Origin: Halobacillus kuroshimensis DSM 18393
GTDB lineage: Bacteria > Bacillota > Bacilli > Bacillales > Halobacillaceae
Direction: 5' to 3'
Length of the DNA stretch: 64,000 nt
Assembly (NCBI RefSeq): GCF_000425705.1
Contig: NZ_AUDY01000011.1
Span: forward strand, 1 to 64,000
In this document: one piece after another, positions 29,091 through 56,172 of the stretch
Layout: each line of letters begins with the position of its first letter
How positions within the stretch are numbered: position 1 is the stretch's first letter
Notes under the pieces: generated by a model
What the model saw: the letters and a program-made list of their open reading frames with translations, nothing else
What the model was told of the DNA's origin: nothing
Database searches by the model: none
Program-made: the position numbers and the translations under genes

Positions 29091-30026
29091 TTACTTATAC
29101 AGCTTTTCATAAATCGATTGAACCACAACCAAATCAAATATGGCCGCCCCTACAGATTTGTACACGATCGTCTTTTCTTCTAAATCCTGCGGCGGATCAT
29201 TTTCGGTGATGATTTTTTCGAGGTCCCAGGAGTTCTCTAAGTCCGAACGTAAATGCCCGGCCTGGATCATGTCCCCGGATTCATGCAGGGCGGATCTGGC
29301 ATCTACAAATACTTCATCAGCGATTCTTAGTACTTGATCAGAGATTTCCTGCATGGAAGGGCGGAAGGAGCCGACGCCTACAATGAGTTTGCCTTTCCAA
29401 TCTGAATCGTGTAATTCAGGAAGTACAGGTGTGGTGGAGGTCGTAGTTGTTACGATAATGTCTGCCTCTCTGGCTAATTCTTCGACAGAGGAAACGGTAA
29501 ACGTCACTTGCGGAAAGCGGGTCTCTGCTTTTGCTTTAAACTGATGGGCTTTCTCTTCGGTGCGGTTATAAATATGTACATGTTTAATATCTCTGGCAGC
29601 GAGGGCTGATTCCAAGTGACTCCATCCTTGTGTGCCGGTTCCGATAATGCCTAACGTTTCCGCGTCTGCTTTAGCCAGGTATTTGATTCCGAGTCCTCCC
29701 AGAGCACCTGTACGCAGGGCCGTAATGGCAATGGCATCACATAAGAAAAGGGGTTCCATCGTCTTGCGGTCATTCAGAACCATCAAGCCGTGGATTGTGT
29801 CCTTTCCAGCATTTTTGTTTTCAGGAGCAACGCCTGCAAGTTTCGTTGAGTAATAGTCTTCATAGAAGGCGGGCATAAGCAAAGCCGTATTCTCCCCATC
29901 CTCTATATGCATCCGGTCCGGCGATATGAATTCGCTCTCTTTTTCGGCGTAAAAAGACTCGATGCTGTCCATCGTTTCCTTCATAGAAAAATTACTTGTA
30001 ATCTCTTCTTTTGATATGACTTTCAT
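29091..30026 (-). CDS. ornithine cyclodeaminase / mu-crystallin family protein
   Basis: A 311-residue NAD(P)-binding protein: Rossmann motif GIIGTGTQG near residue 120, RTGALGGLGIKYLA before it, and HIYNRTEEKA after the second strand. Family members include ornithine cyclodeaminase, ketimine reductases, alanine dehydrogenase and SbnB of siderophore synthesis. The frame is open upstream to 30194, but ATG 30026 has AAAGGAGGG before it. It is divergent from cntK, with the Zur box 227 bases upstream. A role in supplying or recycling a metallophore precursor is possible but unproven. Confidence 0.82.
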   Translation of the reverse strand: MKVISKEEITSNFSMKETMDSIESFYAEKESEFISPDRMHIEDGENTALLMPAFYEDYYSTKLAGVAPENKNAGKDTIHGLMVLNDRKTMEPLFLCDAIAITALRTGALGGLGIKYLAKADAETLGIIGTGTQGWSHLESALAARDIKHVHIYNRTEEKAHQFKAKAETRFPQVTFTVSSVEELAREADIIVTTTTSTTPVLPELHDSDWKGKLIVGVGSFRPSMQEISDQVLRIADEVFVDARSALHESGDMIQAGHLRSDLENSWDLEKIITENDPPQDLEEKTIVYKSVGAAIFDLVVVQSIYEKLYK

Positions 30027-30252
30027 GACTATCCCTCCTTTATGATGTACTACAGATACTATCAAATTTTTCTGAAAAAGTGAAAACACCACAAAATTAT
30101 GGTGTACGACTATAAACGTAATGAGTGAGCTTGAAATTTTCGAGTGATAACGGAAAGTCGTTGGGACACAAATAAACTGGACAAATAATTGCAATAATTT
30201 CGAATATCAATTGACAAAATGGTTGGTTATGGTAATATTTAACCGTTCATTA

Positions 30253-30273
30253 AAATCGTAATTATTACGATTT
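30253..30273. promoter_or_regulatory. Zur box of the cnt operon (perfect palindrome)
   Basis: A 21-base perfect palindrome with core TCGTAATTATTACGA flanked by AAA and TTT, matching 20 of 20 scored positions of the B. subtilis Zur consensus (AAATCGTAAT-N-ATTACGATTT, from memory). It lies 51 bases before the cntK start and in the divergent gap with the cyclodeaminase-like gene. Confidence 0.92.
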
Positions 30274-30323
30274 ACTGATATTACACTACATAATCAATCC
30301 TATTAAAAATTGAGGTCATCCGT

Positions 30324-31157
30324 ATGAAACACGAAGTTGAGTTTATGAAATTTAATCCCACGCAGAATATGACCATTTTAATAGATACTCCTTACCCGAT
30401 CGAAAAGCACAAAACAGTTTCTTCTGAGATTATGTCCTATCAAAACGTCTATGCAGAGCAAGTGGGGTTCATTGAAAAACCATTTAACACGAACGCTGAA
30501 GCTCGTTTGCAAATGGCTGGGGGGGAGTTTTGCGGGAACGCTTGTATGGCGCTTGCTTTACTCGTTTCATCCCAAAGAAATCTACTGAAAAATGGTTGTA
30601 CGAAGTTTTCCCTGGAAGTATCTGGATCTGATCGGTTAATACAATGTCAAGTAAAGCAAGATGCTCATAACTTTTATTGTAAAGTTGATATGCCTTTACC
30701 TAAGAAAATTGAGTTAAAACAGATCATTTTTGAAGGAAATGAATTGGAAATCATCATTGTAAGGTACGACGGTTTCCTACATATTATTTTTGAAACTGAT
30801 GAATTTAATGCTGAACAAAAGAAGAGAGCGCAGTCTCTAGCAGAACTCCTGGGAGCGACTTTAGAAGTTAACTTAATTGGAATACTTTTGTATAAAAGAA
30901 AAACACATGAATTGTCACCTCTTATTTATATCCCGGATCTGGATAGCAGTGTATGGGAGAGAGGGTGTGGTTCGGGGACAGCGTCTCTTGGAGCTTATCT
31001 TGCATGGAAACATAATAAGGACATTGTTTCAGAAATTAAGCAGCCAGGAGGAACGATCACCGTTGCATGCCATCATGAAGAAGGTGAACGGACGAAGCTG
31101 ACTATTGAAGGTACTGTCGACCTGGTTGCTGTAGGAAAAGCGTTTATCGATGTATAA
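30324..31157 (+). CDS. cntK: histidine racemase (DapF-fold), CntK-like
   Basis: First enzyme of staphylopine-type metallophore synthesis; CntK converts L-His to D-His. The 277-residue protein has the diaminopimelate-epimerase fold with its two catalytic cysteines: C70 in GGEFCGNAC and C215 in ERGCGSGTAS. True dapF proteins have longer substrate motifs, and the position upstream of cntL and cntM decides the call. The ATG follows TTGAGGTC. A racemase here implies D-His in the product, as in staphylopine and unlike pseudopaline-type clusters that lack it. Confidence 0.87.
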   Translation: MKHEVEFMKFNPTQNMTILIDTPYPIEKHKTVSSEIMSYQNVYAEQVGFIEKPFNTNAEARLQMAGGEFCGNACMALALLVSSQRNLLKNGCTKFSLEVSGSDRLIQCQVKQDAHNFYCKVDMPLPKKIELKQIIFEGNELEIIIVRYDGFLHIIFETDEFNAEQKKRAQSLAELLGATLEVNLIGILLYKRKTHELSPLIYIPDLDSSVWERGCGSGTASLGAYLAWKHNKDIVSEIKQPGGTITVACHHEEGERTKLTIEGTVDLVAVGKAFIDV

Positions 31158-31184
31158 CCATAATGACCTTTGGAGGTGGACGAT

Positions 31185-31979
31185 ATGTTAGAAATGAAAA
31201 CTCTTGGAGAGGATTTACAAAGTTTCAGATTGAGGTTTGATGTACTAGCCAAGGATAGTAATGACACATTGGACCATAATTCTGAATTAGAGGTGCTGCT
31301 TGATGAGTACTCAAAATTTATATTAGATGAAAAGCACAATAATTTATGGGAACAGTTAAGTTCAGCCGATTCGAATAAATATAGCCAGCTTTTATCTGAA
31401 TTAAGAAAGACATCCGCCCAATGTGTAGCCAGAATGGAGAAATATCGTGCATTAAGGTTATTGGAAGGACATGATGAAGGTTCAGGTTACTTTAACAACA
31501 TAGAGTCTTGTATTCAACAGGAATTCGGCTGCTTTGAAATCAGTTCAAACTCAAAGGTATTACTCATAGGATCCGGCTCTTTTCCGATGACTCCACTTCT
31601 GATAGCTAAGCAGACAGGAGCAGAAGTAGTTGGAATTGATATTGATGAAGAAGCTGTCAAACTGGGCCGGCGAGTTATAGAAAAATTGGGTAGTGAGTTA
31701 AATGTCAGGCTTGAACAACAATCAGTGGAGGACCTAGGTTATGTATCACAAGCGACTCACATCATATTTAGTTCTACTGTAGAAAAAAAGTATGAAATAT
31801 TAAATGAATTACATGCATTAACCAAGAATGATGTCGTGGCAGCTATGAGGTATGGGAATAAATTAAAATCATTATTCAACTATCCAATGAAGAATGTTAA
31901 TCAAACGAAGTGGCGATTAGTTGATAATACTGTTCGACCAGACCAGATATTCGACATAGCCTTGTATGAAAAAGCCTAA
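31185..31979 (+). CDS. cntL: nicotianamine-synthase-like aminobutyrate transferase, CntL-like
   Basis: Transfers the aminobutyrate part of S-adenosylmethionine to D-His in the cnt pathway. The 264-residue protein has a helical N-terminal region and a SAM-binding Rossmann fold: LLIGSGSFPMTPLLIA near residue 127, then VVGIDIDEEAVKLGR; the GSGxxPxT variant of motif I is typical of nicotianamine-synthase-like enzymes. ATG 31185 follows TGGAGGTGG; the in-frame TTG at 31170 overlaps that site. It lies between cntK and cntM. Confidence 0.87.
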   Translation: MLEMKTLGEDLQSFRLRFDVLAKDSNDTLDHNSELEVLLDEYSKFILDEKHNNLWEQLSSADSNKYSQLLSELRKTSAQCVARMEKYRALRLLEGHDEGSGYFNNIESCIQQEFGCFEISSNSKVLLIGSGSFPMTPLLIAKQTGAEVVGIDIDEEAVKLGRRVIEKLGSELNVRLEQQSVEDLGYVSQATHIIFSSTVEKKYEILNELHALTKNDVVAAMRYGNKLKSLFNYPMKNVNQTKWRLVDNTVRPDQIFDIALYEKA

Positions 31980-32003: not shown

Positions 32004-33290
32004 ATGAAAGGTTTCAACAGAGTATTGATATTAGGAACTGGTCCAACTGCCATCCAGCTCGCCCTGAATTTTAAAGCGCAAATGAATAGTTATATAGGGA
32101 TTGCTGGGAGAGAATCTGTTCGATCTGAAACATTTTATTCCGATATTGAAAAGAATGATTTTCAGCTAAGGGTGAGTGTTCAAAATGAGAAACATAAAAA
32201 GATGGAAGGTGAATGTCGTATCGATCAGCTTTATAAAGGGATTGATACGGTTGAGGGGAACTGGGAAACCCTTATATTATCTGTAACGACAGATGCGTAC
32301 ATAGATGTTTTGAGGCAGGTTCATCATCATGTTCTGGAAAAAGTGAAATATATTGTTTTAGTGTCCCCTACGTTAGGTTCTAACCATTTACTCCGGAGTT
32401 ACATGAATGAACACAATTCAGACGCTGAAATCATCAGCTTTTCCACTTATTTTGGTGATACTAGATGGGTTGCAGAGCGCCCTTCTAATCATGTATTGAC
32501 TACAGCGGTTAAAGAGAAAGTATTCATTGGCTCGTCCCACTACAATTCTGATTATGTAAATAAATTATGCTTCATGTATAAAGAAATCGGACTGCAGCTG
32601 GAAGTTATGAAGTCTCCTATAGAAGCTGAGACGAGAAATATTTCTCTGTATGTTCACCCTCCATTATTTATGAATGATTTTTCGTTAGATGCGATATTTG
32701 GAGATACAGAAACTAAAAAGTACGTTTATAAAGTATACCCAGAGGGGCCGGTCACCCAATATTTAGTTCGGGAAATGTTATCTCAATGGAAAGAAATCAT
32801 GAATGTTCTTAAGAAGTTAAGAATAAATGGAATAAATCTGCTGCAATTCATGACGGATGATAATTATCCGGTCAGGCAGGAAAGTTTATCTCGTAATGAT
32901 ATCGAGAATTTCAATTCTTTTGACGACATCCACCAGGAATACTTGCTTTACATTAGGTACACTTCTTTGTTAGTGGACCCATTTTCAGAGCCTGATGCTC
33001 AAGGAAGATATTTTGATTTTTCAGCTGTCCCAATTAGAAGGGTTTTTGTGAATAAAGAAGGATATTTGGATGTTCCCAGGATGCCCAAGGAAGATTATTA
33101 CCGGATAAAAATCATACATGGAATAGCAGAACATTTGAATGTACCCTGTCCGACCATTGAAAAGTTTATAAGTAAATATGAGAGTAAGTTAAAGGATGCT
33201 GCAAACTCTCAAGACTCCCGATTATTATCTGATGCCTTTATTGTTAATAGTTTTGAGACAGATATAAAGATGATTTGCAGTGAGATATAA
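32004..33290 (+). CDS. cntM: staphylopine/opine metallophore dehydrogenase, CntM-like
   Basis: Reductively condenses the CntL product with an alpha-keto acid using NAD(P)H to finish the opine metallophore. The 428-residue protein starts with a Rossmann motif VLILGTGPTAIQLAL, followed by a long helical substrate domain as in opine dehydrogenases. Pyruvate (staphylopine) or 2-oxoglutarate cannot be chosen by eye. The ATG follows AAAGGAG, 24 bases after cntL. It completes the cntKLM synthesis module. Confidence 0.87.
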   Translation: MKGFNRVLILGTGPTAIQLALNFKAQMNSYIGIAGRESVRSETFYSDIEKNDFQLRVSVQNEKHKKMEGECRIDQLYKGIDTVEGNWETLILSVTTDAYIDVLRQVHHHVLEKVKYIVLVSPTLGSNHLLRSYMNEHNSDAEIISFSTYFGDTRWVAERPSNHVLTTAVKEKVFIGSSHYNSDYVNKLCFMYKEIGLQLEVMKSPIEAETRNISLYVHPPLFMNDFSLDAIFGDTETKKYVYKVYPEGPVTQYLVREMLSQWKEIMNVLKKLRINGINLLQFMTDDNYPVRQESLSRNDIENFNSFDDIHQEYLLYIRYTSLLVDPFSEPDAQGRYFDFSAVPIRRVFVNKEGYLDVPRMPKEDYYRIKIIHGIAEHLNVPCPTIEKFISKYESKLKDAANSQDSRLLSDAFIVNSFETDIKMICSEI

Positions 33291-33344: not shown

Positions 33345-34955
33345 ATGCATTATAAAAAAATCACCCAATTAAGCTTATTATTGCTGACTATATTCACCTT
33401 AGCGGCTTGTTCTTCAGGAGATGACGCAAAGGCTGAGAATGAAAATGAAAATGAATTGACTTATGCGATGACGAAAGACATTGGTGATATGAACCCACAT
33501 TTATATACGGGTTATATGGCAGCTCAGGGAGTTGTATTTGAGACGTTGGTTGAAAATACAGAAGAGGGAATTAAACCTTCATTAGCCGAGTCGTGGGATA
33601 TATCAGAGAATGGAAAAGTGTATACGTTTACTTTAAGGGATGATGTTAAATTCCATGATGGTGAACCTTTCAATGCAGAAGCTGTAAAGAAAAATATAGA
33701 TGCTGTTCAAGAAAACGCTGAAGTCCACTCATGGATTCAGCTGTCACAAAAGATCACAGAAACAAAAGTAATTGATGAATATACTGTTGAGATTAACTTA
33801 TCAGAGGCATACTACCCTACACTTTCCGAACTATCAACAACAAGGCCGTACACTTTCTTATCGCCTAATGACTTTAAAGATGGGGGTACCAAAAACGGGG
33901 TGAACGGTTATAACGGAACTGGTCCATATATCCTTACTGAACATAAAAAAGAAGAAGCTGCTGTGTTCGAAGCGAATGAACAATATTGGAATGGAGTACC
34001 TGATGTAAAGAAGGTTACTTCGAAAGTTCTTCCCTCGGGAGAAACAACGTTTTTAGCCCTTAAAAAAGGAGAAATTAACTTCCTCTTCACTGATGACCGT
34101 GGAGCAAACAGCATCGATTATGAATCCATGGAAGCTCTTGAGGCATCTGGAGAATACCAAGTCGTGAGAAGTAAACCGATGGATACAAAGTTGATTGCGG
34201 TTAACAGCAGTAATGAAGACAGCCCGATTAGGGAAACGGCGGTACGTGAGGCAATTTGGTACGCAATAGATAGAAAGACGATCAGTGAAAGTATTCTAAA
34301 CGGTACTGAACAGCCGGCAGGCACGTTACTTTCTAAGAACATCCCCTATGCAGATGTTGATTTGAAAGAGCGCGGGTATGACCCGGAAATGGCAATGGAA
34401 TTATTGGATAAGGCTGGCTGGAAGCTGGACGAGGGATCAGGAGTGAGAACAAAAGAGGGAAATGATCTAAATGTAACTTTCTATTACGACAGCAATGCCC
34501 CTGCCCAAAAAACACAGGCGGAGTTTATACAGGATTCCCTGAAAAATATGGGCATTAACCTTGAAATTATTGGAGAAGATTCTACGTCAATCGCAGACAG
34601 AAGAAAGTCAGGAAATTATGAGCTTTTGTACACGCGTACGTGGGGGTTAGCTTATGATCCTGAAAGTACGATTTCAGCTTTTACTGATGTTTCTTACAAT
34701 CTTCATTCAACAAAAGGGATGAAGAATTCGGACGAGCTTTATAAAAAAATCGATGAAGTGATGGTGACAGTGGATAAAGAGGAACGCCAATCTTTGTATG
34801 ATGATATTCTCACAATGGTTCATGATGAAGCTGTATTTATTCCGATCACATATGGTGGTATGACAGTCGTCGCACCTGAAAATCTGGAGAACATTAATTT
34901 TAAGCAAACTCAATATGAACTCCCATTTGAAGAGATGGCATATAGAGAAAAATAA
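33345..34955 (+). CDS. cntA: metallophore-metal binding lipoprotein, CntA-like
   Basis: Extracellular solute-binding protein (SBP_bac_5, nickel/peptide family) of the importer. The 536-residue protein has a lipoprotein signal with lipobox LAAC (Cys about 22) followed by SSGDD, then LTYAMTKDIGDMNPHLYTG and FTLRDDVKFHDGEPFNAEAV. It captures the metal-loaded metallophore and delivers it to CntB/CntC. The ATG follows AAAAGGAG. A hairpin separates it from cntB and may raise its level relative to the permease genes. Confidence 0.88.
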   Translation: MHYKKITQLSLLLLTIFTLAACSSGDDAKAENENENELTYAMTKDIGDMNPHLYTGYMAAQGVVFETLVENTEEGIKPSLAESWDISENGKVYTFTLRDDVKFHDGEPFNAEAVKKNIDAVQENAEVHSWIQLSQKITETKVIDEYTVEINLSEAYYPTLSELSTTRPYTFLSPNDFKDGGTKNGVNGYNGTGPYILTEHKKEEAAVFEANEQYWNGVPDVKKVTSKVLPSGETTFLALKKGEINFLFTDDRGANSIDYESMEALEASGEYQVVRSKPMDTKLIAVNSSNEDSPIRETAVREAIWYAIDRKTISESILNGTEQPAGTLLSKNIPYADVDLKERGYDPEMAMELLDKAGWKLDEGSGVRTKEGNDLNVTFYYDSNAPAQKTQAEFIQDSLKNMGINLEIIGEDSTSIADRRKSGNYELLYTRTWGLAYDPESTISAFTDVSYNLHSTKGMKNSDELYKKIDEVMVTVDKEERQSLYDDILTMVHDEAVFIPITYGGMTVVAPENLENINFKQTQYELPFEEMAYREK

Positions 34956-34975
34956 AAAGGAGCATGCTCCTTTTT
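34954..34975 (+). terminator. palindromic hairpin between cntA and cntB
   Basis: AAAAAGGAGCATGCTCCTTTTT, here cited as AAAAAGGAGC / GCTCCTTTTT around AT, immediately at the cntA stop with a T-rich tail. It could be a partial terminator or a 3'-end stabiliser giving more CntA than permease; the genes beyond it are clearly the same system. Confidence 0.65.
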
Positions 34976-35037
34976 ATTTTTTCTATTATTGGAATGCGAT
35001 ATGAAGTTGAAACTATCACAGTGAGAAGGAGGACCCA

Positions 35038-35970
35038 ATGGCGTTATATACAATAAGGCGGCTGGCAGCTGTATTCCCGATTTTAATTATTATTTCTTTC
35101 TTAACTTTTTTTTTAATCAATCTTTCACCTTTCAATCCTGCTGAAATCCTTTTACAGGCAAGAGGAATCCCCGTTATAACCGACGATTTAATCTTGCAGA
35201 CGGAAGAAGAATTAGGGTTGAATGATCCTTTTATTGTCCAGTATTTTAATTGGCTGATGGATTGTTTTCAATTAAATTTTGGAACATCTTATGTTACAGG
35301 AGAACCAGTATGGAATGAAATTAAACCCGCTTTCATAAATACATTAAAATTAACAGTGCTTTCATCCTTCATCATAGTTGGCTTATCGATTCTTTTAGGA
35401 GTTATCTGTGCCATTAATGAAGGAAAGTTCATTGATAAATCGGTAAGATCCATGTCCTTTGTACTGATTGGAATGCCATCATATTGGTTGGCTTCCTTAA
35501 TGATTTGGTACTTTTCAGTAGAATTAGATTTACTGCCCACAAGCGGCATGTCCTCTGCTGAAAGTTATATTCTCCCAGTAAGCATCATTACGGTAAGTTA
35601 CGTTGGAATCTATTTTAGAGTGATTAGAACATCTATGCTGAGTAATTTAAATGAAGACTATGTATTCTATGGACGTGCAAGTGGTTTACCTGAAAAGAAA
35701 ATAACCTTACACCTGTTGAGGAATTCTCTCCAAGTATCCATTTCAGTTTTTTGTATGGGAATTCCTACAATATTAGGAGGGACTGTTGTGATTGAAAATA
35801 TATTTGCATGGCCAGGTTTAGGAAGTTTGAGTGTCGATTCCATTCTTAAAAGAGATTTCCCTATTATACAAACGTATGTTTTACTGCTTGGCGCATCTTT
35901 TGTAGTATTTAATACTCTATCTGACTTGATAAATATGACTTTGAATCCCAAATTGAGGAAAGGATTTTAA
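35038..35970 (+). CDS. cntB: metallophore ABC transporter permease, CntB-like
   Basis: DppB/NikB-type permease of 310 residues with the typical N-terminal helix (RRLAAVFPILIIISFLTFF), a long external loop and about six membrane segments, with the EAA-like GRASGLPEKKITLHLLRNSL loop that contacts the ATPases. Start ATG after GAAGGAGG. Its stop codon directly abuts the cntC start, so translation is coupled. Confidence 0.88.
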   Translation: MALYTIRRLAAVFPILIIISFLTFFLINLSPFNPAEILLQARGIPVITDDLILQTEEELGLNDPFIVQYFNWLMDCFQLNFGTSYVTGEPVWNEIKPAFINTLKLTVLSSFIIVGLSILLGVICAINEGKFIDKSVRSMSFVLIGMPSYWLASLMIWYFSVELDLLPTSGMSSAESYILPVSIITVSYVGIYFRVIRTSMLSNLNEDYVFYGRASGLPEKKITLHLLRNSLQVSISVFCMGIPTILGGTVVIENIFAWPGLGSLSVDSILKRDFPIIQTYVLLLGASFVVFNTLSDLINMTLNPKLRKGF

Positions 35971-36831
35971 ATGAGGTTTTTAAAAAGCTTATTTAAGGAT
36001 AAATTAGCTGCCAGTTCTTTAGTTGTTATTTTGGCAGTTATCATAATTGGTGTCTTTGCACCCGTATTCGCTCCTCATGACCCTCTTGAAGTAAACATAA
36101 GTAAGAAATACGCTGGATCATCATGGGAATACTTACTCGGTACGGATCAGCTTGGTCGCTGTGTGTTATCGAGGTTAATTTATGGGATTCGTCCAAGCAT
36201 ATTGTGGGTGATGGCGGCATTGATGCTTTCTGTTTTAATTGGAGCAGTACTAGGCTTTATTGCCGGCTATTTTAAAGGTAAAGTTGATGCTTTAATTATG
36301 AGAGTGTGTGACATCATGCTTTCTTTTCCAGGCTATGTAATGCCTATCGCATTTGTTGGTATCTTTGGCGTAGGTCTTGAGAATATATTGATCGCCTTTA
36401 TCATTATGAAATGGGCATGGTTCACAAGAGTCATTCGAACATCTGTTATGCAGTATACGGAGCTTGAATACATACAATTTGCAAAAGCTGCAGGGGTCAA
36501 TCATTTTAAAATCATCCGCAGGCATCTTATACCTGTTACGTTGGCGGATATTGCTGTTATATCCAGCAGTTCTGTTTGTTCAATGATTCTTCAAATATCT
36601 GGATTCTCCTTTCTTGGTCTGGGAGTACAGGCCCCGGCTCCGGAATGGGGCATGATGCTGAATGAAGCAAGAAGTGTCATGTTTACCAGACCTGAATTAA
36701 TGCTTGCCCCTGGAATTGCAATTATTACTGTTGTTTTTGCTTTTAATTTTTTGTCTGATTCTCTGCAAACTATATTTGATCCAAAGTTAATGAAATCGAA
36801 AAAAATAAGAACAGAAAAAGTAGAGGCATGA
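35971..36831 (+). CDS. cntC: metallophore ABC transporter permease, CntC-like
   Basis: DppC/NikC-type permease of 286 residues: N-terminal helix, the LLGTDQLGRCVLSRLIYG segment typical of the family, five further helices and the EAA-type loop FAKAAGVNHFKIIRRHLIP. It pairs with CntB to form the channel. Coupled to cntB (no gap) and four bases before cntD. Confidence 0.88.
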   Translation: MRFLKSLFKDKLAASSLVVILAVIIIGVFAPVFAPHDPLEVNISKKYAGSSWEYLLGTDQLGRCVLSRLIYGIRPSILWVMAALMLSVLIGAVLGFIAGYFKGKVDALIMRVCDIMLSFPGYVMPIAFVGIFGVGLENILIAFIIMKWAWFTRVIRTSVMQYTELEYIQFAKAAGVNHFKIIRRHLIPVTLADIAVISSSSVCSMILQISGFSFLGLGVQAPAPEWGMMLNEARSVMFTRPELMLAPGIAIITVVFAFNFLSDSLQTIFDPKLMKSKKIRTEKVEA

Positions 36832-36835
36832 ACGT

Positions 36836-42122: not shown

Positions 42123-42146
42123 ATTTGCAAAAGGAGGGTGTTGCCG

Positions 42147-44212: not shown

Positions 44213-44219
44213 GCAGGTA

Positions 44220-47412: not shown

Positions 47413-48522
47413 ATGAAACATTACGATGTCCTCATAGTAGGTGCAGGTGCTTCTGGGATTGGGTTAGGAATTCTCATGAAGCAGATGGGGTGTGAAAATT
47501 TTAGTATCATGGATCGCGGGGAGATTGGGGAAACATTCCGGAGATGGCCGGAAGAAATGAGGTTTATTACTCCATCGTTTCCTTCTCAAGGATTTGGTCA
47601 AACAGACTTAAATGCAGTGGCTCCTAAAACTTCACCGGGGTATACATTGAACGAAGAACACCCGACAGGAGAAGATTATGCGGAATATCTGGAGCTGTTG
47701 GTCAGCCACTATGAATTACCTGTCCAAACCGGAATTGAAGTGAACAACATAAATAAATCGGAGAATGGTTCTTTTGAGGTCCATACGTCACAAGGAGCGC
47801 TCACCAGTACGTTTGTTGTGTGGGCTGGCGGGGAGTATCAATATCCGAATCAAGAGACGTTTCCTGGTGCAGAACTATGTACTCATAACAGTCATGTTCA
47901 TTCCTGGGAGGATATGAAAGCAGATGAGTATATTGTAATCGGTGGATATGAAAGTGGACTTGATGCCGTTTATCAACTGAATAAAATGAAGAAAAGTTCT
48001 CGTCTGTTAGCAAAGACGCCTACATGGAAAATTGATAGTAGTGACCCGAGCACGGTTTTATCTCCCTATACATTTAAGCGGATGCGGGAAGCAATACCTG
48101 AAGGAAGAATTAAAATATATGAGCAGACGGTCCAGTCCGTAGCTAAGGACGATGGTGTGTATTATGTGAATACGGCTGATGGAAACCAATTAACTTCACA
48201 TACGGCGCCAATCTTAGCGACAGGTTTTAAAGGAAGCACCTCTATGATTTCTCATTTATTCGAAAACGGAAAACATGGAAAACCTTTAGTAAATGATCAA
48301 GATGAATCTACCAAGAGTCAAGGTTTATTCCTGTGCGGGCCCGAACTTCGTCATGATAGTCATGTGTTCTGCTTCATCTATAAGTTCCGCCAACGTTACC
48401 ATGTTGTTGCCGAGGCAATCGGCTCCCGTTTGAATTTAAATATGGAAATTCTGAATCTATACAGAAAAGAAAGCTTTTATCTGGATGACCTCTCTGATTG
48501 TGGAGAGCGTTGTGAATGCTGA
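47413..48522 (+). CDS. FAD-dependent pyridine-nucleotide oxidoreductase (CzcO-like)
   Basis: A 369-residue flavoprotein with an N-terminal FAD motif VGAGASGIGLG (residues about 8-18), GEIGETFRRWP, and a second dinucleotide motif VIGGYESGLDAVY near 180. It resembles the CzcO/YpdA/FMO-like group. The C-terminus ends DCGERCEC, a C-x3-C-x-C tail that could bind metal. ATG 47413 follows GGAAGGAGG. Its stop overlaps the FeoB-like start. The reductive role (thiol or metal reduction) is inferred from context. Confidence 0.8.
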   Translation: MKHYDVLIVGAGASGIGLGILMKQMGCENFSIMDRGEIGETFRRWPEEMRFITPSFPSQGFGQTDLNAVAPKTSPGYTLNEEHPTGEDYAEYLELLVSHYELPVQTGIEVNNINKSENGSFEVHTSQGALTSTFVVWAGGEYQYPNQETFPGAELCTHNSHVHSWEDMKADEYIVIGGYESGLDAVYQLNKMKKSSRLLAKTPTWKIDSSDPSTVLSPYTFKRMREAIPEGRIKIYEQTVQSVAKDDGVYYVNTADGNQLTSHTAPILATGFKGSTSMISHLFENGKHGKPLVNDQDESTKSQGLFLCGPELRHDSHVFCFIYKFRQRYHVVAEAIGSRLNLNMEILNLYRKESFYLDDLSDCGERCEC

Positions 48523-50189
48523 CCGAACAGAAAAGCGAATCGTTAGAAGCGGTAGCTTTAGCAGGACTTGAATCAGTCGGGAAAACAGCTTTGTTCAGAC
48601 ATCTGACAGGCCATCAAACGGGCGTGGAAACCAATGTTAAGGGTTCCACTGTAACCATATCAAGTGGGGCGCTGAAAGACGATTCTACGGTGAAAATCTT
48701 TGATACTCCAGGTATTCGTTTCAAAGATGACAGCGTCACTACCCGAATGGCATTAAATCAAATGAAAGATTTGAATAAGATCATATTGGTCGTAAAGGCT
48801 TCAAATCTTAAAGATGACCTGCTCGTGTTGGAAGAGCAATTGGGATTAAGAGGGAAGAACGTGGTGGTGATCGCTACACACAGCGATAAATATCAGCCAA
48901 ATGAAGAAGAAAAACAGTATGTCCGAACATTGTTGAATGTTCCTGTCGTATGGTGTAACAGCCGGTCACTGAGTCATGAAGAACAACAGGAGATAGGAAA
49001 GGCTGTTCAAACTTCTTCTGTTTGGGAATTGAACAATAATTTACTATCTTTTTTACCCTCCGGTGTAGAAGGAGAAACCACCAACTGGCTGGAAAAACTA
49101 CTGGCTAAGCCTTTGGTCGGGCCTGTCTCTGCCTTATTTATGGTTATCAGCATGTTTGCAGGTCCGGTTTTTGCCGCCTATTTATTTTCCAGTTACCTTC
49201 AACCTATATCCGAAAAGGCATGGTTAAATCCTGTGAAAGAAAGCCTCATCAATGCTCCGGATTTTATTCAAGTCGTATTGATAGGGAATTATGGTGCATT
49301 AACTCTTGGATGGTACTCTTTTTTATGGGCGTTTCCAGTGGTTTTTCTTATCGGTTTAAGTGTGGCGGTAACGGAAGAGACCGGTATCCAGGAACATATC
49401 ACCTATGCTTTAAATCCATGGCTGATGAAGATTGGATTATCAGGGAGAGACCTCATTCCTGTTTTAACTGGTTTCGGGTGTAATGTTGTAGCTGTTATGC
49501 AGAGCAGAACCTGCAGCAGTTGTACAAGAGCGTCGTGTATTTCTTTGATTTCTTTTGGTTCAGCTTGCAGCTACCAAATCGGTGCATCTTTATCGTTATT
49601 CGGTTCAGCTGGTCATCCGCTTATGTTTATTCCGTATATTTTCCTATTGTTTATAGTAGGGGCGGTGCACACTCGAATTTGGGAGAAGCGTTCTGTCTCT
49701 CTTGCGCCTGTTCCTTCCCTTCCATACTTGCAATCCGTGACATGGCGAGGGGTGAAGTTTCGATTAATGGGGATTATGAAACAATTTTTAAAGCAGGCGA
49801 TGCCTATTTTTATAGTCATTTGTATCGTGGCTTCTCTGCTTGAATTTTTTGAAGTTATGAAAGCTATGGCTGCTCTCTTCTCTCCTTTACTGACGTTGTT
49901 TTCATTACCTGCAGAGGCAGCTCCGGGAGTCATTTTTTCTATCTTCCGAAAAGATGGAATGATGGTGCTGAATGAAGGAGAAGGTGCACTTCTTCATACC
50001 CTTGAAACGTGGCAGGTGTTTGTAGTCGTGTACTTGGCTTCTACATTGTCTTCCTGTCTTGTCACTTTGTTCTCCATTTACAAGGAGATGGGTTTGATGC
50101 ACGCATTTAAAGTGTTAGGGAAACAGATGACCACTTCGGTAATAAGTACGCTGCTCCTGGCGGTCTTTTTGTCTGCTTTGTTCCATTAA
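48516..50189 (+). CDS. FeoB-like GTPase-permease, candidate zinc importer
   Basis: A 557-residue protein with an N-terminal G domain (G1 GLESVGKT 17-24, G3 DTPG, THSDK as the NKxD-like motif) and a C-terminal membrane part with about 8 helices and two Gate-like segments. FeoB proteins import ferrous iron. Here the segment after GFGCNV is Cys-rich (TCSSCTRASC, then SACSYQ; residues about 325-355), unlike ordinary FeoB. There is no feoA. With a strong Zur box at the operon head, zinc rather than iron is the inferred cargo. Confidence 0.8.
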   Translation: MLTEQKSESLEAVALAGLESVGKTALFRHLTGHQTGVETNVKGSTVTISSGALKDDSTVKIFDTPGIRFKDDSVTTRMALNQMKDLNKIILVVKASNLKDDLLVLEEQLGLRGKNVVVIATHSDKYQPNEEEKQYVRTLLNVPVVWCNSRSLSHEEQQEIGKAVQTSSVWELNNNLLSFLPSGVEGETTNWLEKLLAKPLVGPVSALFMVISMFAGPVFAAYLFSSYLQPISEKAWLNPVKESLINAPDFIQVVLIGNYGALTLGWYSFLWAFPVVFLIGLSVAVTEETGIQEHITYALNPWLMKIGLSGRDLIPVLTGFGCNVVAVMQSRTCSSCTRASCISLISFGSACSYQIGASLSLFGSAGHPLMFIPYIFLLFIVGAVHTRIWEKRSVSLAPVPSLPYLQSVTWRGVKFRLMGIMKQFLKQAMPIFIVICIVASLLEFFEVMKAMAALFSPLLTLFSLPAEAAPGVIFSIFRKDGMMVLNEGEGALLHTLETWQVFVVVYLASTLSSCLVTLFSIYKEMGLMHAFKVLGKQMTTSVISTLLLAVFLSALFH

Positions 50190-50207: not shown

Positions 50208-51407
50208 ATGGAAAAGAAAATACCTGTCACCGTCTTGAGTGGTTACTTAGGTTCAGGGAAAACCACGCTGCTTAATCATATATTAAACAACCGGGATGGA
50301 CTGAAAATCGCTGTTATCGTCAATGATATGAGTGAAATTAATATCGATGCCGACTTAGTAGAAAAAGAGGGGCATTTCTCCAGGATAGATGAAAATTTGG
50401 TCGAGATGTCCAACGGCTGCATTTGCTGTACATTGAGAGAAGATTTACTTATTGAAGTGGAGAAGATTGCAAAGGCGGGTGACATTGACTATATCGTTAT
50501 TGAATCAACGGGAATCAGTGAGCCTGTGCCGGTAGCTCAAACTTTTTCTTATATCGATGAGGAGCTGGGCATTGATCTTACCCAGTTCTGCCGTTTGGAT
50601 ACGATGGTTACGGTTGTAGATGCATATCGGTTTTGGCATGATTATGAATCCGGAGATCGTCTGCTGGACAGAAAACAGGCCGTAGGGGAAGAGGACGAAC
50701 GAAACCTTGCAGATCTGCTTATCGACCAAATTGAGTTTTGCGATGTCCTTCTACTGAATAAATGTGACATGGTAACGAAGGAGCAGCTGGATTCGTTGAC
50801 AAAAGTAGTGAAGACATTACAGCCGGATGCTGAAATCATTCCAACAACGTTTAGTGTAATTGATCCGGAAAAGATTCTAAATACGCATCGTTTTAATTTT
50901 GAGAAGGCAAGTCAATCGGCTGGCTGGCTTAAGGAATTGATGGCAGGTCCCGAAGCTCATACCCCGGAAACCGAAGAGTATGGAATTCAATCGTTTGTGT
51001 ACAACAGAAGACTCCCGTTCCATTCCAAACGCTTCTCCGACTGGATCAGCCGGATGCCGGCATCGATTGTCCGGGCTAAAGGTATTACCTGGTGTGCTAC
51101 AAGGAATGATATAGCGCTCCTTTTATCTCAGGCAGGCCCATCTGTTTCTTTAGAGCCTGTTTCGTACTGGGTAGCTTCACTGCCGAAAGAACAGAAAGAT
51201 CGCACGATTAAGCAGAACCCTGGTGTCTTGAACGATTGGGATGTGGAGTTTGGCGATCGTATGATTAATTTAGTTTTTATAGGGGTTGAACTTGACAGAA
51301 AAGCGATTACCAAAGAGTTGGACGAGTGCTTGTTAACCCCGGAAGAGATGAATGAAAAATGGTCCGGGATGGAAGATCCTTTTCAGTGGGAAGTAAGATC
51401 ACCCTAA
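50208..51407 (+). CDS. COG0523 GTPase metallochaperone 3
   Basis: A 399-residue G3E GTPase: [10 protein letters not shown] near residue 10, [11 protein letters not shown], CxCC in [19 protein letters not shown], and NKCD. It has the long inserted and C-terminal regions of the YciC-type subgroup and no His tract. Close paralogue of copy 4 at 52474 (N-terminal halves about two-thirds identical by eye). The ATG follows AAGGGAGG, 18 bases after the FeoB-like gene; dcd follows. Confidence 0.87.
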
Positions 51408-51428: not shown

Positions 51429-51983
51429 ATGATATTATCCAGTGAAACTATATTGAATAAGGTAGAGAAGGCGGAATTGGAAATTGCTCCATTCATTCCG
51501 GAACATGTTCAGCCTGCATCGATTGACTTGACGTTGGGCAGTCACTTTATGACAGTGGATGAGCATAGTACAGGATGTATTTCTGTAAGGAAAAAAGCCC
51601 CTTATCGTGATATTTATATCGGCCGGGGAGAATCCATCATGATCCCTCCTCATTCGTTTGTGCTTGCAACTACGAAAGAATGGGTCCGGCTGCCCAATGA
51701 TCTTACCGCTTTCGTAGAAGGTAGAAGCTCCATTGGAAGGATGGGTTTGTTTGTTCAGAATGCTGGCTGGGTGGACCCGGGGTTTGAAGGACGCATCACT
51801 CTGGAATTGTTTAATTCGAACCGTTCCCCAATCGAATTGATTGAGGGATGGAGAATTTGTCAATTAGTACTCGCCCGAATGGATCGACCTACAAAAACTT
51901 ATAAAGGCAAATACTTCGGACAGTCTAGTACACAGGCCAGTGCAATCTATGAAGATAAAGAAAATCATTTTTTTAATTTTTAA
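51429..51983 (+). CDS. dcd: dCTP deaminase, Zur-operon copy
   Basis: A 184-residue trimeric-dUTPase-fold enzyme with EGRSSIGRMGLFVQNAGWVDPGFEG and ITLELFN, split motif of dCTP deaminase (RSSIGR; catalytic Glu in ITLELFN region). It makes dUTP (or dUMP) from dCTP without a zinc ion. Bacilli normally use the zinc enzyme dCMP deaminase (ComEB) for dTMP supply, so this copy, last in a Zur operon, is a likely zinc-sparing substitute. Function is firm from motifs; the sparing role is inference. Confidence 0.88.
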   Translation: MILSSETILNKVEKAELEIAPFIPEHVQPASIDLTLGSHFMTVDEHSTGCISVRKKAPYRDIYIGRGESIMIPPHSFVLATTKEWVRLPNDLTAFVEGRSSIGRMGLFVQNAGWVDPGFEGRITLELFNSNRSPIELIEGWRICQLVLARMDRPTKTYKGKYFGQSSTQASAIYEDKENHFFNF

Positions 51984-52002
51984 ATCGTAATCATTACTTA
52001 TA
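51982..52002. promoter_or_regulatory. Zur box of rpsN
   Basis: AAATCGTAAT-C-ATTACTTATA; the left half is perfect and 16 of 20 scored positions match. It overlaps the dcd stop codon and lies 20 bases before rpsN. Confidence 0.75.
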
Positions 52003-52021: not shown

Positions 52022-52291
52022 ATGGCTAAGAAATCAAAAGTAGCAAAAGAAAAAAAGAGACAAGAAATGGTAGCGAAATACGCTGATCTTCGAAGAGAAC
52101 TAAAAGCGAAAGGAGATTACGAAGCCCTAAGGAAGCTTCCGCGTGATTCTTCTCCTACTCGTTTGACCGGCAGGTGTGAAGTGACCGGGAGACCGCGCGG
52201 CTATATGAGGAAGTTCAAAATGTCCCGCATTGCTTTTAGGGAATATGCTCATAAAGGCCAGGTTCCAGGTGTGAAAAAAGCAAGCTGGTAA
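52022..52291 (+). CDS. rpsN: zinc-independent 30S ribosomal protein S14 (C- form)
   Basis: An 89-residue S14 that lacks the CxxC pairs of the zinc-binding form and has the longer length of the C- type. It shares the conserved core [27 protein letters not shown] and ends KKASW, with start ATG after AGGAAGG. In B. subtilis the C- paralogue is Zur-repressed and replaces zinc-containing S14 under zinc limitation; the Zur box here agrees. Confidence 0.96.
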
Positions 52292-52473: not shown

Positions 52474-53652
52474 ATGTCAAAGAAGATACCAGTAACCGTT
52501 TTAAGTGGTTATTTAGGGTCCGGAAAAACGACGTTATTAAATCATTTGTTGCACAATAGAGAAGACCTCAAAATCGCGGTCATTGTAAATGATATGAGTG
52601 AAGTCAACATAGATGCAGATATGATCAAGCAAGGTGGATTCAGCCGGACAGAAGAAAAGTTGGTTGAATTACAGAATGGCTGCATCTGCTGTACTCTGAG
52701 GGACGATTTAATTAAGGAGGTAGAAAAGCTTTCCAACCTGGACATCGATTATATCGTTATTGAGTCCACCGGAATATCAGAACCCATTCCCGTTGCCCAG
52801 AGCTTTACGTATGAAGATGAAGAACTGGGAATCAACCTTGGTAACCACTGTCGATTAGACACTATGGTAACCGTCGTCGATGCCAATCGCTTCTGGGATG
52901 ATTATGGATCAGGAGAAAACTTACTGGACCGTAATCAAGGGGCTGATGAAAACGATGCTAGGGAAGTGATCGACCTATTGATCGACCAAATTGAATTTGC
53001 GAACGTTATTCTGTTGAATAAAATCGATTTAGTAGAAGAAGTCAATAGAGAGGAATTAAAGGCTGTTATCAAACAATTAAATCCTCACGCCAAAGTGGTG
53101 GATACGACTTACAGCCAAGTGCCTCTCCATGAAGTTTTAAATACAGGTTTATTTGATTTTGAACAAGCAAGTCAGGGAGCAGGATGGATGAAAGAACTAA
53201 ATGAAGAACATGTCCCGGAAAGCGAAGAATACGGGATTGGCTCTTTTGTTTATCGGAGGAAGAGGCCATTTCACCCGGAGCGCTGGATGAATTGGCTGGA
53301 GAATTGGCCGGAAGGAATCGTTCGATCCAAAGGATTCTTCTGGCTGGCTTCGAGAAATGACACGTCTGGGTTATTATCTCAGGCTGGAACTTCTCTCGCT
53401 ATCCAAGGAGTCGGAGACTGGATAGCTACGTACCCAGAACAAGAACGGGAAGAGATTTTGAAAGAAGAACCAGAGTTAGCTGAACGATGGGATGATAAGT
53501 ATGGAGACCGCATGACGGAATTGGTATTTATTGGTATAAAAATGAATAAAGAGGAAATCATCAAAGGACTTGATCACTGCCTGCTGACCGACGAAGAAAT
53601 GGAATGGGACTGGCATGACCTCCATGATCCACTACCAGCTTTTACTGGTTGA
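52474..53652 (+). CDS. COG0523 GTPase metallochaperone 4
   Basis: A 392-residue G3E GTPase, close paralogue of copy 3: [45 protein letters not shown] choose ATG 52474 after AGGAGGAG; the upstream open frame (from 52396) has no ribosome site. It shares the rpsN transcript unless the 52343-52400 hairpin stops it. Together with copy 3 it suggests a recent duplication around dcd and rpsN. Confidence 0.87.
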   Translation: MSKKIPVTVLSGYLGSGKTTLLNHLLHNREDLKIAVIVNDMSEVNIDADMIKQGGFSRTEEKLVELQNGCICCTLRDDLIKEVEKLSNLDIDYIVIESTGISEPIPVAQSFTYEDEELGINLGNHCRLDTMVTVVDANRFWDDYGSGENLLDRNQGADENDAREVIDLLIDQIEFANVILLNKIDLVEEVNREELKAVIKQLNPHAKVVDTTYSQVPLHEVLNTGLFDFEQASQGAGWMKELNEEHVPESEEYGIGSFVYRRKRPFHPERWMNWLENWPEGIVRSKGFFWLASRNDTSGLLSQAGTSLAIQGVGDWIATYPEQEREEILKEEPELAERWDDKYGDRMTELVFIGIKMNKEEIIKGLDHCLLTDEEMEWDWHDLHDPLPAFTG

Positions 53653-53973: not shown

Positions 53974-54384
53974 ATGATGAATTTGAATACAGCTATCCAA
54001 TTGTTAAAAGAAAAAGGGTACAAACATACAAAGCAGAGAGAACGTATGCTTGAGATTTTTGTTAGTCAGGATCAATATATAGCAGCGAAAGATGTGTTGA
54101 GAATGATTCAACAGGACTTTCCCAGTGTGAGTTATGATACGATCTATAGAAATTTATATCTTTTAACGGATGAAGAAATGTTAGAAGCGACTGTGCTTCA
54201 TGGAGAAAAACATTTCCGACTTGCATGCTATTCTAATGAGCATCATCACCATTTCATTTGTAACAGCTGTGGGAGTAAGAAAGAGGTTGAGTTCTGTCCT
54301 ATGAACGTAATAGAAAAGCTGCAGGGTTATCAAATCGAACATCATAAATTTGAGATTTATGGAGAATGTCCACAATGTCACTAA
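53974..54384 (+). CDS. zur: Fur-family regulator, probably Zur
   Basis: A 136-residue Fur-family protein: winged helix (about 1-80, VSYDTIYRNLYLL as recognition helix), the regulatory metal region HHHHFIC, and structural zinc pairs C96-x2-C99 and C132-x2-C135. Zur, Fur and PerR share this plan, and motifs alone do not separate them. Its place inside a region with at least nine Zur boxes, just before the Zur-boxed adcA, favours Zur. The ATG (53974 or 53977) follows AAGGGGTGAAGA. A terminator follows. Confidence 0.8.
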   Translation: MMNLNTAIQLLKEKGYKHTKQRERMLEIFVSQDQYIAAKDVLRMIQQDFPSVSYDTIYRNLYLLTDEEMLEATVLHGEKHFRLACYSNEHHHHFICNSCGSKKEVEFCPMNVIEKLQGYQIEHHKFEIYGECPQCH

Positions 54385-54414
54385 GCCGGTTGGAATAAAC
54401 CGGCTTTATTTTTT
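54383..54414 (+). terminator. zur terminator
   Basis: AAGCCGGTT / AACCGGCTT with a seven-base loop and T-rich tail at the stop codon. Confidence 0.9.
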
Positions 54415-54419
54415 GGGAA

Positions 54420-54463
54420 TCATCGTAATGATTACTGTTTACAATTCGTAATCATTACGATAG
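54420..54463. promoter_or_regulatory. double Zur box of adcA
   Basis: Box a 54420-54440 (16 of 20 scored positions, core TCGTAATGATTAC). Box b 54443-54463 (17 of 20, perfect core TCGTAATCATTACGA). They are offset by 23 bases, about two helical turns, so cooperative Zur binding is plausible. Box b ends 30 bases before adcA. Confidence 0.86.
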
Positions 54464-54492
54464 AATGATTTAGGAAATAAGGAGGAGAAAAT

Positions 54493-56172
54493 ATGTTAAA
54501 AAAAATAATAGGCGTAGTGAGTTTATTTGCTTTCATATTCGTACTTACAGCATGTGGAGAAGAAGAATCAAGCAATAGTGAAGAAGGAGAACAGTCCGAT
54601 GGTTCAAGTGAAGCGTTGAGTATTTATACGACGGTTTATCCTCTTCAGTATTTTGCCGAGCAGATTACAGGGGAGCAGGCGGATGTGCAATCAATTCTGC
54701 CTCCGGGTTCAGACCCTCACACATATGAACCAACATCAAAAGAAATGATTGAAATGGCAGAAGCAGACGCATTTATTTACAACGGTGCCGGGTTAGAACC
54801 CTATGCCGAAAAAATTTCAGACTCTATCAAATCTGAAGATGTGAAAATTCTGGAAGCATCCAAGGGGATTGAATTAAAAGAGCATGCTCATAACCATGAG
54901 GAAGAAGAAGGAACTCACGAGGATGAACATGCTCATGAAGAAGAAGAAAATCATGAGGGCGAACATGCTCATGAGGAGGAAGAAGGAAGCAGCCATGAAG
55001 ATGAACACGCTGGACATAACCACGGGGACCAGGACCCGCACGTCTGGCTTGATCCTATCCTTTCTATTCAGGTAGCTGAGAATATTAAAGATACACTGGT
55101 TGAACTGAATCCTGAGCAGGAAGATACCTATAATGAAAACTTCCAGGAACTAAAAAGCAACCTTGAAGGTCTGGATCAGGAATTTCACGATCAGCTGGAA
55201 ACAGCACCAAAGAATAAATTCATCGTGTCTCATGCCGCTTATGGATATTGGGAACAATCCTACGGCGTCGAGCAGGTTTCTGTTTCTGGTTTAAGTCCAA
55301 CCAATGAACCTTCTCAAAAAGATTTGGAAGAAATCATTAAAACGGCTGAACAGCATAACATCAAACACGTATTCTTTGAGCAGAATGTCACGCCTAAAGT
55401 TGCGGACATCGTTAGAAAAGAAATTGGGGCAGAAGCTCTGCGTCTTCATAATTTGTCTGTGTTGACGGAAGAAGATATAAACAATGAAGAAGATTATTTC
55501 ACTCTCATGAAGCGGAATTTAGAAGTATTGACAGAAGGGTTATCCGGAGAACCATCTGATTCAGAGGAATCTTCTGAATCAGAAGAACACAGCGAACACA
55601 ACCATAACCATGGCCATGCGGATGACGAAGAAGCCCAGCAGATTTATGATGGGTACTTTGAAGATGAGCAGGTGAAGGATCGTGAACTGACAGACTGGGA
55701 AGGAGACTGGCAGTCTGTATATCCATACCTTCAGGACGGAACACTTGATGAAGTGTTTGCTCATAAGGCTGAGAATGACGGAGATATGACAGCAGAAGAA
55801 TATAAAGAGTACTATAAGATCGGTTACGAAACCGATGTGGAACGCATTATTTTTGAGGGAAATGACGTAACGTTCTTCGAAAATGGAGAAAAGTCGTCGG
55901 GGACATATACCTATGATGGTTATGAAATCCTTACCTATGAAGCTGGCAATAGAGGGGTCCGTTATATTTATGAGTTAACGGAAGAGGATGGGGATCTTCC
56001 TCAATACATCCAATTCAGCGATCACAGTATCACTCCAACTGATGCGGACCACTACCACCTCTACTGGGGAGATGACCGTGAAGCTCTATTGGACGAAGTG
56101 ACAAACTGGCCGACGTATTATCCATCAGACCTGGATGGCCAGGAGATCGCTCATGAAATGATGGCGCATTGA
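54493..56172 (+). CDS. adcA: zinc-binding lipoprotein AdcA (ZnuA-ZinT fusion)
   Basis: A 559-residue lipoprotein: signal with lipobox LTAC, a cluster A-1 (ZnuA/TroA) domain (about 35-345) with DPHTYEP, a long His/Glu-rich loop at about 132-175, DPHVWLDP and SHAAYGY, then a His-rich linker (EHNHNHGH) and a C-terminal ZinT domain (about 395-559) with WEGDWQSVYPYL and ADHYHLYWGD. It captures zinc outside the cell for an ABC importer. The znuB/znuC partners are not beside it, so it must serve a remote transporter. Confidence 0.93.
   Translation: MLKKIIGVVSLFAFIFVLTACGEEESSNSEEGEQSDGSSEALSIYTTVYPLQYFAEQITGEQADVQSILPPGSDPHTYEPTSKEMIEMAEADAFIYNGAGLEPYAEKISDSIKSEDVKILEASKGIELKEHAHNHEEEEGTHEDEHAHEEEENHEGEHAHEEEEGSSHEDEHAGHNHGDQDPHVWLDPILSIQVAENIKDTLVELNPEQEDTYNENFQELKSNLEGLDQEFHDQLETAPKNKFIVSHAAYGYWEQSYGVEQVSVSGLSPTNEPSQKDLEEIIKTAEQHNIKHVFFEQNVTPKVADIVRKEIGAEALRLHNLSVLTEEDINNEEDYFTLMKRNLEVLTEGLSGEPSDSEESSESEEHSEHNHNHGHADDEEAQQIYDGYFEDEQVKDRELTDWEGDWQSVYPYLQDGTLDEVFAHKAENDGDMTAEEYKEYYKIGYETDVERIIFEGNDVTFFENGEKSSGTYTYDGYEILTYEAGNRGVRYIYELTEEDGDLPQYIQFSDHSITPTDADHYHLYWGDDREALLDEVTNWPTYYPSDLDGQEIAHEMMAH

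Follow-up and report, generated by a model that had tools for sequence, protein, structure and literature searches.

The window analysed here comprises 64,000 nucleotides of Halobacillus kuroshimensis DSM 18393 (contig NZ_AUDY01000011.1, positions 1 to 64,000), and its 27-kb section between positions 29091 and 56172 contains nine Zur boxes among genes for metal acquisition and zinc economy. Judging from its sequence, this section is probably a Zur-repressed zinc-starvation island, in which a flavoprotein and a FeoB-like permease encoded by neighbouring genes (hereafter, the pair) would provide a second metal route. The boxes, the gene content of the island and the conservation of the pair together with its boxes carry this reading. 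Most of the predicted zinc-famine genes of this strain sit in the island, and the evidence that boxes and genes give for a Zur regulon is strong; from it we infer the regulation itself.

An earlier note on this DNA had suggested that the strain had gathered zincophore synthesis, uptake, zinc allocation and zinc-sparing genes in one stretch with zur inside. Regarding the genes, this description holds, as zincophore synthesis and uptake (cntKLM-ABCDF-E), allocation (four COG0523 proteins and AdcA) and sparing (a zinc-free S14 and, probably, Dcd) are found in a box-dense stretch together with a Fur-family gene. However, the regulon extends beyond the island, as three boxes lie at 110-114 kb and contig 6 has one in front of its znuC-znuB-zur-znuA operon. 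Nor is the clustering special to this strain: the congeners G305 and G268 have nearly the same cluster, and all 22 genomes of the genus contain 2-11 boxes, with the maximum in this genome. Thus, the idea of a cluster unique to the strain was rejected.

Zur boxes in the island and in the genome

Mismatches were counted against the consensus AAATCGTAATNATTACGATTT. The nine boxes of the earlier note, as well as its weak site at 53810, which has five mismatches and was left out of the box count, were recovered with all ten coordinates exact. Sites with at most three mismatches number seven in the window, against a mean of 0.01 after shuffling, and seven were reached in none of 100 shuffles. A position matrix trained on 34 boxes, all from other genomes, gave ranks 1-9 in the window to exactly the nine boxes (scores 20.5-33.2), the runners-up being 30186 (12.2), 53810 (9.2) and 36713 (8.6). 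Ten sites score 12 or more, all of them inside 29091-56172, whereas 60 simulated windows averaged 0.18 such sites. It should be noted that resemblance to this consensus had guided the choice of the training boxes; the matrix thus owes nothing to the window but does depend on the consensus.

When the whole genome (3,845,569 bases, 15 contigs) was scanned allowing three mismatches, 11 sites were obtained and a reversed-pattern control gave none. Seven of these sites lie in a 24-kb part of the island, three at 110-114 kb of the same contig and one on contig 6; such boxes are therefore not as frequent elsewhere as in the island, which holds seven of the 11. A looser 15-base core with up to two mismatches yielded 28 sites in the genome (11 of them in the island) versus 12 for its control. 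Chance as the origin of the boxes is ruled out by the shuffles, the genome-wide control and the matrix trained on outside sequences.

The boxes of Zur, Fur and PerR are closely alike in B. subtilis (PMC4324032, in excerpt), and the sites could on that account be ascribed to Fur or PerR. This attribution is highly improbable, since the same boxes precede znuC, adcA, rpsN2 and COG0523 genes, and elsewhere folE2, all textbook Zur targets, and no iron-uptake operon appears among the genes read around the boxes.

Distribution of the flavoprotein/permease pair

Relatives of the permease were collected from named genomes by means of two peptide patterns, which found 128, the best 80 being kept as loci. 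Two records are present twice among them (L028/L050 and L029/L049), and 30 loci are labelled non-Bacillota on the strength of their record titles; the set spans Bacillota, Verrucomicrobiota, Chloroflexota, Pseudomonadota and others. As the loci were found by these patterns, conservation inside them is built in, whereas the cysteine triad, His385 and Cys436 discussed below lie outside. The permease is encoded in 14 of 299 genomes of the order and in 24 of 398 of the class, the genome under study being counted in both.

In 70 of the 80 loci, no more than 400 bases separate the flavoprotein gene from a permease gene of the same strand, and in three more the flavoprotein gene lies nearby. It is the upstream gene in 65 of the 70 adjacent pairs, and in the order-level set the two genes are adjacent in all 13 other genomes. 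A COG0523 gene is a neighbour in 55 of 80 loci and any zinc marker in 61, FolE2 being Pfam-confirmed in those checked. The density of COG0523 genes amounts to 72 per Mb in the loci, versus five strong copies in the 3.85 Mb of the genome under study, which is the sole yardstick; four of these five are inside the island.

The earlier note had expected that the cluster would permit genes of unclear role to be assigned to zinc biology by association, and the pair bears this out. Of the 47 Bacillota pairs, 34 have a Zur box with at most four mismatches no farther than 250 bp from the flavoprotein start, and all 47 have one upstream within 4.5 kb, the reversed control giving 0/47 at either distance. 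In the 13 pairs with a distant box, all intervening open reading frames (ORFs) are on the same strand. At the order level, 12 of 13 loci have the box no more than some 320 bases from the called start, or just inside the called ORF; the thirteenth (L032) has it ahead of the COG0523 gene upstream. Ten further class-level loci behave similarly, with a box at the pair in nine (one of which has an interrupted pair) and before the upstream COG0523 gene in the tenth; six of the ten belong to one genus with genomes of 2.4-2.8 Mb, and their permease is devoid of the G domain.

Beyond the Bacillota, exact GTTATANNATAACA, which we take to be the enterobacterial type of Zur box, is located upstream of four of six Pseudomonadota pairs (34 bases in Klebsiella and in Superficieibacter, 247 in Erwinia and 85 in Stutzerimonas), the reversed pattern being exact in none of the six. 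The type strain Klebsiella pneumoniae ATCC 13883 possesses a zinc-type cluster (L113:4095-14223) with three exact boxes, which encodes FolE2, two COG0523 proteins, two Fur-family proteins, a paralogue of cysteinyl-tRNA synthetase and the pair. This synthetase was considered as a zinc-free form and rejected, because the residues that serve as zinc ligands in the E. coli enzyme are retained. As for plasmids, Klebsiella accounts for 498 of the 525 permease-bearing records overall (E 1e-60), and in most among the matches listed the Klebsiella permease is annotated beside an NAD(P)/FAD oxidoreductase. The zniCBA system of Klebsiella is described without FeoB or an oxidoreductase in the available part of its report (PMC10797113).

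Features of the permease and the flavoprotein

The permease shares with FeoB an N-terminal G domain, Gate domains and the GFGCN motif, and Cys322, Cys351 and Cys514 are common to it and E. coli FeoB. Unlike FeoB, it remains under the TIGR00437 cut-off, has additional residues (Cys333, Cys336, Cys341, His385 and Cys436), is preceded by a Zur box and has a flavoprotein partner. Cys333, Cys341, His385 and Cys436 are present in 73 of 73 aligned rows and Cys336 in 71, the corresponding positions of E. coli FeoB (in the order 333, 336, 341, 385, 436) being occupied by Leu, Pro, Met, Leu and Ser. Twelve of the 73 rows lack the G domain, from which the membrane part and the partner emerge as the core. 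No feoA or feoC was found among the annotated neighbours of the permease in the window. In a Foldseek search, the permease matched the G domain of FeoB and other small GTPases, with no membrane-domain match among the 50 matches listed.

The flavoprotein ends in a Cys-x(3,4)-Cys-x-Cys tail in 60 of 70 pairs, including 46 of the 47 from Bacillota. Its structure model has a mean predicted local distance difference test score of 91.8, with residues 362-369 unstructured, which would be in keeping with a mobile hand-off tail. A full-length homologue (E 7.9e-75) with a solved structure exists in PDB 3d1c, a putative flavin-containing monooxygenase with a tail of the same kind, YLDDYSCCEVSCTC, listed without an assigned function; the listing does not consider a partner gene. 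This protein is from S. aureus. YpdA, the bacillithiol disulphide reductase, belongs to the same flavoprotein superfamily (E 3.7e-24; PDB 7a7b). Nevertheless, the identification of the flavoprotein as YpdA was rejected, given its 85.1 bits on TIGR04018 against a cut-off of 339.9, and it differs from YpdA also by the additional cysteine tail. The N-terminal cysteine of YpdA is a serine in the window protein. In E. coli FeoB, a cysteine-bearing cytoplasmic C-terminus has been studied as a metal ligand (PMC10647171, in excerpt); there the tail is on FeoB itself, whereas here such a tail is on the partner flavoprotein.

A proposed second metal route and its alternatives

Taking these features together, we propose that the pair imports metal under zinc starvation, the flavoprotein being the thiol partner for its hand-off, so that the two would form a second metal route based on thiols. 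The permease, with its extra cysteines, would admit zinc or, possibly, a substitute metal; the Cys-x3-Cys-x-Cys tail of the flavoprotein would take this metal or keep the site reduced, and would deliver the metal to the COG0523 proteins encoded nearby, at their GCxCC motif. A broader suggestion, on which our opinion is almost evenly divided and leans slightly to the negative, is that the pair constitutes a phylum-spanning class of zinc importers, in which a cysteine-lined, often GTP-gated channel of the FeoB type is coupled to a flavoprotein whose cysteine tail receives the metal or controls its redox state and supplies it to COG0523 chaperones, and which is mobile between Zur regulons. As to mobility, the pair lies between COG0523-b and COG0523-c here, is missing at that place in two congeners and is encoded on Klebsiella plasmids.

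Several observations weigh against this reading of the island and its pair. Seven of the 80 loci have no flavoprotein at the permease locus, and 19 have no zinc marker in the collected DNA. The flavoprotein tail is absent in 10 of 70 pairs, nine of them mainly from Verrucomicrobiota or Kiritimatiellae. The two Achromobacter pairs have no exact GTTATANNATAACA upstream, and for most pairs from phyla other than Bacillota and Pseudomonadota the search for an upstream palindrome was negative. None of the 21 other congeners has the pair at a threshold of E 1e-30, so it is dispensable. SufU2, considered as a zinc-free replacement, was rejected as such, its ligand motifs being kept. Finally, a protein akin to FeoB could serve metal swapping by transporting Fe(II), Mn(II) or Co(II).

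This last point leads to an alternative in which the Zur regulon is real and the permease imports one of these ions to remetallate zinc enzymes, the flavoprotein reducing or handling the metal. In favour of it, FeoB, to which the permease is related, transports Fe(II), and this genome encodes no canonical FeoB above the family cut-off. However, the cysteine triad and Cys436, absent in E. coli FeoB, suit a soft metal like zinc better, and the boxes are of the Zur type with zinc genes as neighbours, which makes this alternative unlikely. Still less likely is that the pair is no metal importer at all. In that case, the flavoprotein would be a thiol-disulphide (bacillithiol-type) reductase or an N-oxidising enzyme releasing zinc bound to thiols or metallophores, and an organic product would be the cargo of the Gate protein. 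The distant relationship to YpdA and the naming of Gate domains after nucleoside recognition speak for it. However, the core of the permease matches the FeoB profile and retains the FeoB GCN motif, and the pair is found in Klebsiella and in other phyla, where bacillithiol is not expected.

A zinc importer with a thiol hand-off partner being the preferred reading of the pair, two poorly described genes become a testable zinc-import hypothesis, and the structure of a close homologue of the flavoprotein is known (3d1c). In the open literature, to which the search extended, no description of a Zur-linked FeoB-like/flavoprotein pair was found. The COG0523 survey PMC2770081 makes no mention of flavoprotein, FeoB, dCTP, deaminase, permease or SufU. 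The nearest precedent is cg0794/cg0795 of Corynebacterium glutamicum, a Zur-controlled COG0523 protein beside a putative oxidoreductase, which is likened here by description only and for which the available part of the report mentions no FeoB-like gene (PMC2823685).

Proposed operation of the island

Repression, transport, the identity of the metal, its hand-off and the by-pass to deoxyuridine monophosphate (dUMP) are what we infer from these genes and boxes. With ample zinc, Zur-Zn would occupy the nine boxes and keep their units off. When zinc is scarce, CntKLM would make a zincophore of the staphylopine type, which CntE would export and CntABCDF would re-import as the zinc complex, and AdcA would feed the ZnuCB permease encoded on contig 6. 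The COG0523 proteins would load priority zinc enzymes, SufU2 probably among them, and RpsN2 would take over from the zinc-containing S14.

Dcd would yield dUTP from dCTP without zinc, circumventing dCMP deaminase. Prokaryotic Dcd is zinc-independent, and Gram-positive bacteria normally rely on the zinc enzyme dCMP deaminase (PMC12088426, in excerpt). The motifs EGRSSxGR and GW(V/I)DPGF are present in the window protein and in the six relatives listed. A dCMP deaminase-like PF00383 protein with HAE, PCxxC and GYNG motifs is encoded on contig 3; the genome thus encodes both routes. Dcd occurs in three of the 22 genomes of the genus, every time within a box-bearing cluster and in two of them without the pair, as well as in 25 further loci, all collected for the permease. 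Dcd is probably a zinc-sparing gene, and from its location in Zur clusters a route to dUMP that spares zinc is predicted; such a link to Zur would explain why some Bacillota with dCMP deaminase keep a zinc-free route to dUMP. No paper on Dcd in zinc sparing was found in the open literature.

SufU2, besides which the genome encodes a further SufU copy on contig 7, retains the CGD, GC and late-Cys zinc-ligand motifs, as do all 14 relatives examined, which makes it a probable client instead of a substitute. A COG0523 gene follows SufU2 within 400 bases in eight of 14 other loci, and the overlap of sufU2 and COG0523-b in the island points to a likely client of a zinc chaperone in iron-sulphur assembly. 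All four COG0523 proteins of the island match PF02492, and c and d miss the ZigA cut-off.

The rest of the regulon, congeners and known systems

On contig 6, the znuC-znuB-zur-znuA operon carries one box 15 bases upstream of znuC (L013 coordinates 7224-7244; znuC start 7208) and a further box before znuA. Its location places the permease for AdcA outside the island, and its Fur-family protein, 69% identical to that of the window, indicates that the genome encodes two Zur-like proteins, the window Zur being one of two. The boxes at 110-114 kb precede a second flavoprotein gene and an ArsP/DUF1980 gene pair. This second Zur-linked flavoprotein (110637-111791 of contig 4, the contig of the window; L012:10637-11791) matches NAD_binding_9/Pyr_redox_2 and has boxes at 110447 and 110535; relatives of it were seen in six other collected loci, two of these being one record.

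In the two congeners with nearly the same cluster (2 of 21 others), which lack the cnt operon and the pair, the order is u125-sufU2-COG0523-b, box, COG0523-c-dcd, box, rpsN2-zur, boxes, adcA, box, COG0523-a-arsP-DUF1980. There, only a box separates COG0523-b from COG0523-c, and it is exactly between those two genes that the window has the pair with its box. This identifies the pair as a discrete module. The cnt part has the lowest guanine plus cytosine content (0.37-0.39, vs 0.43 left of the island), a hint of separate arrival.

The Zur targets of B. subtilis have in common with the island AdcA/ZnuA-type uptake, RpsN2 and COG0523 genes. The box consensus is also shared (PMC4324032, in excerpt). 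Unlike that regulon, the genes are gathered here, and a zincophore operon, a second Zur, Dcd, SufU2 and the pair are added. With respect to staphylopine/Cnt systems, the gene set and its order (K-L-M-A-B-C-D-F-E) are the same, with racemase, nicotianamine-synthase-like enzyme, opine dehydrogenase, ABC importer and CntE exporter in one operon-like run. CntE passes its curated cut-off; CntK, CntL and CntM fall under the staphylopine cut-offs, which suggests a metallophore of the staphylopine family, the opine of which may differ.

Other features of the island

Table 1. Genes and Zur boxes of the 27-kb island (bits and cut-offs from profile searches)
Feature	Position	Strand or location	Evidence or remark
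OCD/mu-crystallin family protein	29091..30026	-	PF02423 E 1.2e-56; divergent from cntK
Zur box, perfect	30253..30273	between OCD gene and cntK	0 mismatches; matrix score 33.2
CntK-like histidine racemase	30324..31157	+	NF033599 223.5 bits, cut-off 300 not reached
CntL-like nicotianamine-synthase-type enzyme	31170..31979	+	NF033601 315.5 bits, cut-off 350 not reached
CntM-like opine dehydrogenase	32004..33290	+	PF10100 E 1.4e-200; NF033600 534 bits vs cut-off 675
CntA-B-C-D-F-like ABC importer	33345..38392	+	SBP_bac_5, two BPD_transp_1, two ABC_tran
CntE metallophore exporter	38438..39628	+	NF047574 680 bits, cut-off 235 passed
113-residue His/Cys-rich protein, possible zinc buffer	39818..40159	-	sequence
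MBL-fold hydrolase, AidB-lactonase-like	40860..41633	-	PF00753; NF047979 103.5 bits vs cut-off 360; box 41732 upstream
Zur box	41732..41752	before MBL-fold gene	2 mismatches; matrix score 25.8
Zur box	42102..42122	before COG0523-a	3 mismatches; matrix score 21.4
COG0523-a GTPase	42138..43112	+	cobW E 2.8e-43
ArsP_1 permease	43199..44212	+	PF03773
DUF1980/TIGR03943 protein	44169..45092	+	PF21537; TIGR03943 190.7 bits, cut-off 88.8
Zur box	45332..45352	before 125-residue orphan gene	3 mismatches; matrix score 25.4
125-residue orphan protein	45478..45855	+	recurs in Zur clusters
Zur box	45875..45895	before sufU2	3 mismatches; matrix score 24.7
SufU2, paralogue of housekeeping SufU	45949..46389	+	TIGR01994 145.6 bits, cut-off 92.5 passed
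COG0523-b GTPase	46376..47353	+	cobW E 1.4e-54; start overlaps sufU2 end
Zur box	47373..47393	before flavoprotein/permease pair	1 mismatch; matrix score 30.6
FAD/NAD(P) flavoprotein, YpdA/monooxygenase-like	47413..48522	+	Pyr_redox_3 E 1.1e-95; C-terminal tail CGERCEC
FeoB-like permease	48516..50189	+	FeoB_N + Gate; TIGR00437 109.2 bits vs cut-off 315.65
COG0523-c, ZigA-like	50208..51407	+	NF038288 526 bits vs cut-off 600
dCTP deaminase Dcd	51429..51983	+	TIGR02274 183 bits, cut-off 92.8 passed
Zur box	51982..52002	before rpsN2	4 mismatches; matrix score 22.3
RpsN2, zinc-free type S14	52022..52291	+	PRK08881 120 bits, cut-off 77 passed
COG0523-d, ZigA-like	52474..53652	+	NF038288 531 bits vs cut-off 600
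Fur-family regulator, taken as Zur	53974..54384	+	PF01475
Two Zur boxes (54420, 54443)	54420..54463	before adcA	4 and 3 mismatches; matrix scores 20.5, 20.6
AdcA, ZnuA-ZinT fusion binding protein	54493..56172	+	ZnuA E 9.6e-82; ZinT E 1.1e-85

Several orphan proteins gain a zinc assignment through repeated association. Profile searches of Pfam and NCBIfam gave no match for the 125-residue orphan, relatives of which are present in nine other collected loci, all of them Zur clusters or permease loci. The 113-residue His/Cys-rich protein has relatives (54-81% identity) in four other collected loci, and copies about 80% identical stand beside Zur clusters in three other loci; in the window its gene has no Zur box of its own. 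A 48% relative of the MBL-fold hydrolase is encoded between sufU2 and zur in Gracilibacillus.

The OCD gene, which has the perfect box in common with cntK, likely starts at the ATG at 30026, its longest ORF starting at 30194; in a congener (L170), a 93% homologue lies beside a box without cnt genes. The genes of the CntA-B-C-D-F importer start at 33345, 35038, 35971, 36836 and 37646. Just left of the island, on the minus strand, positions 28182-28297 match Rfam rli30, a Listeria small RNA, with 56.6 bits against 41.

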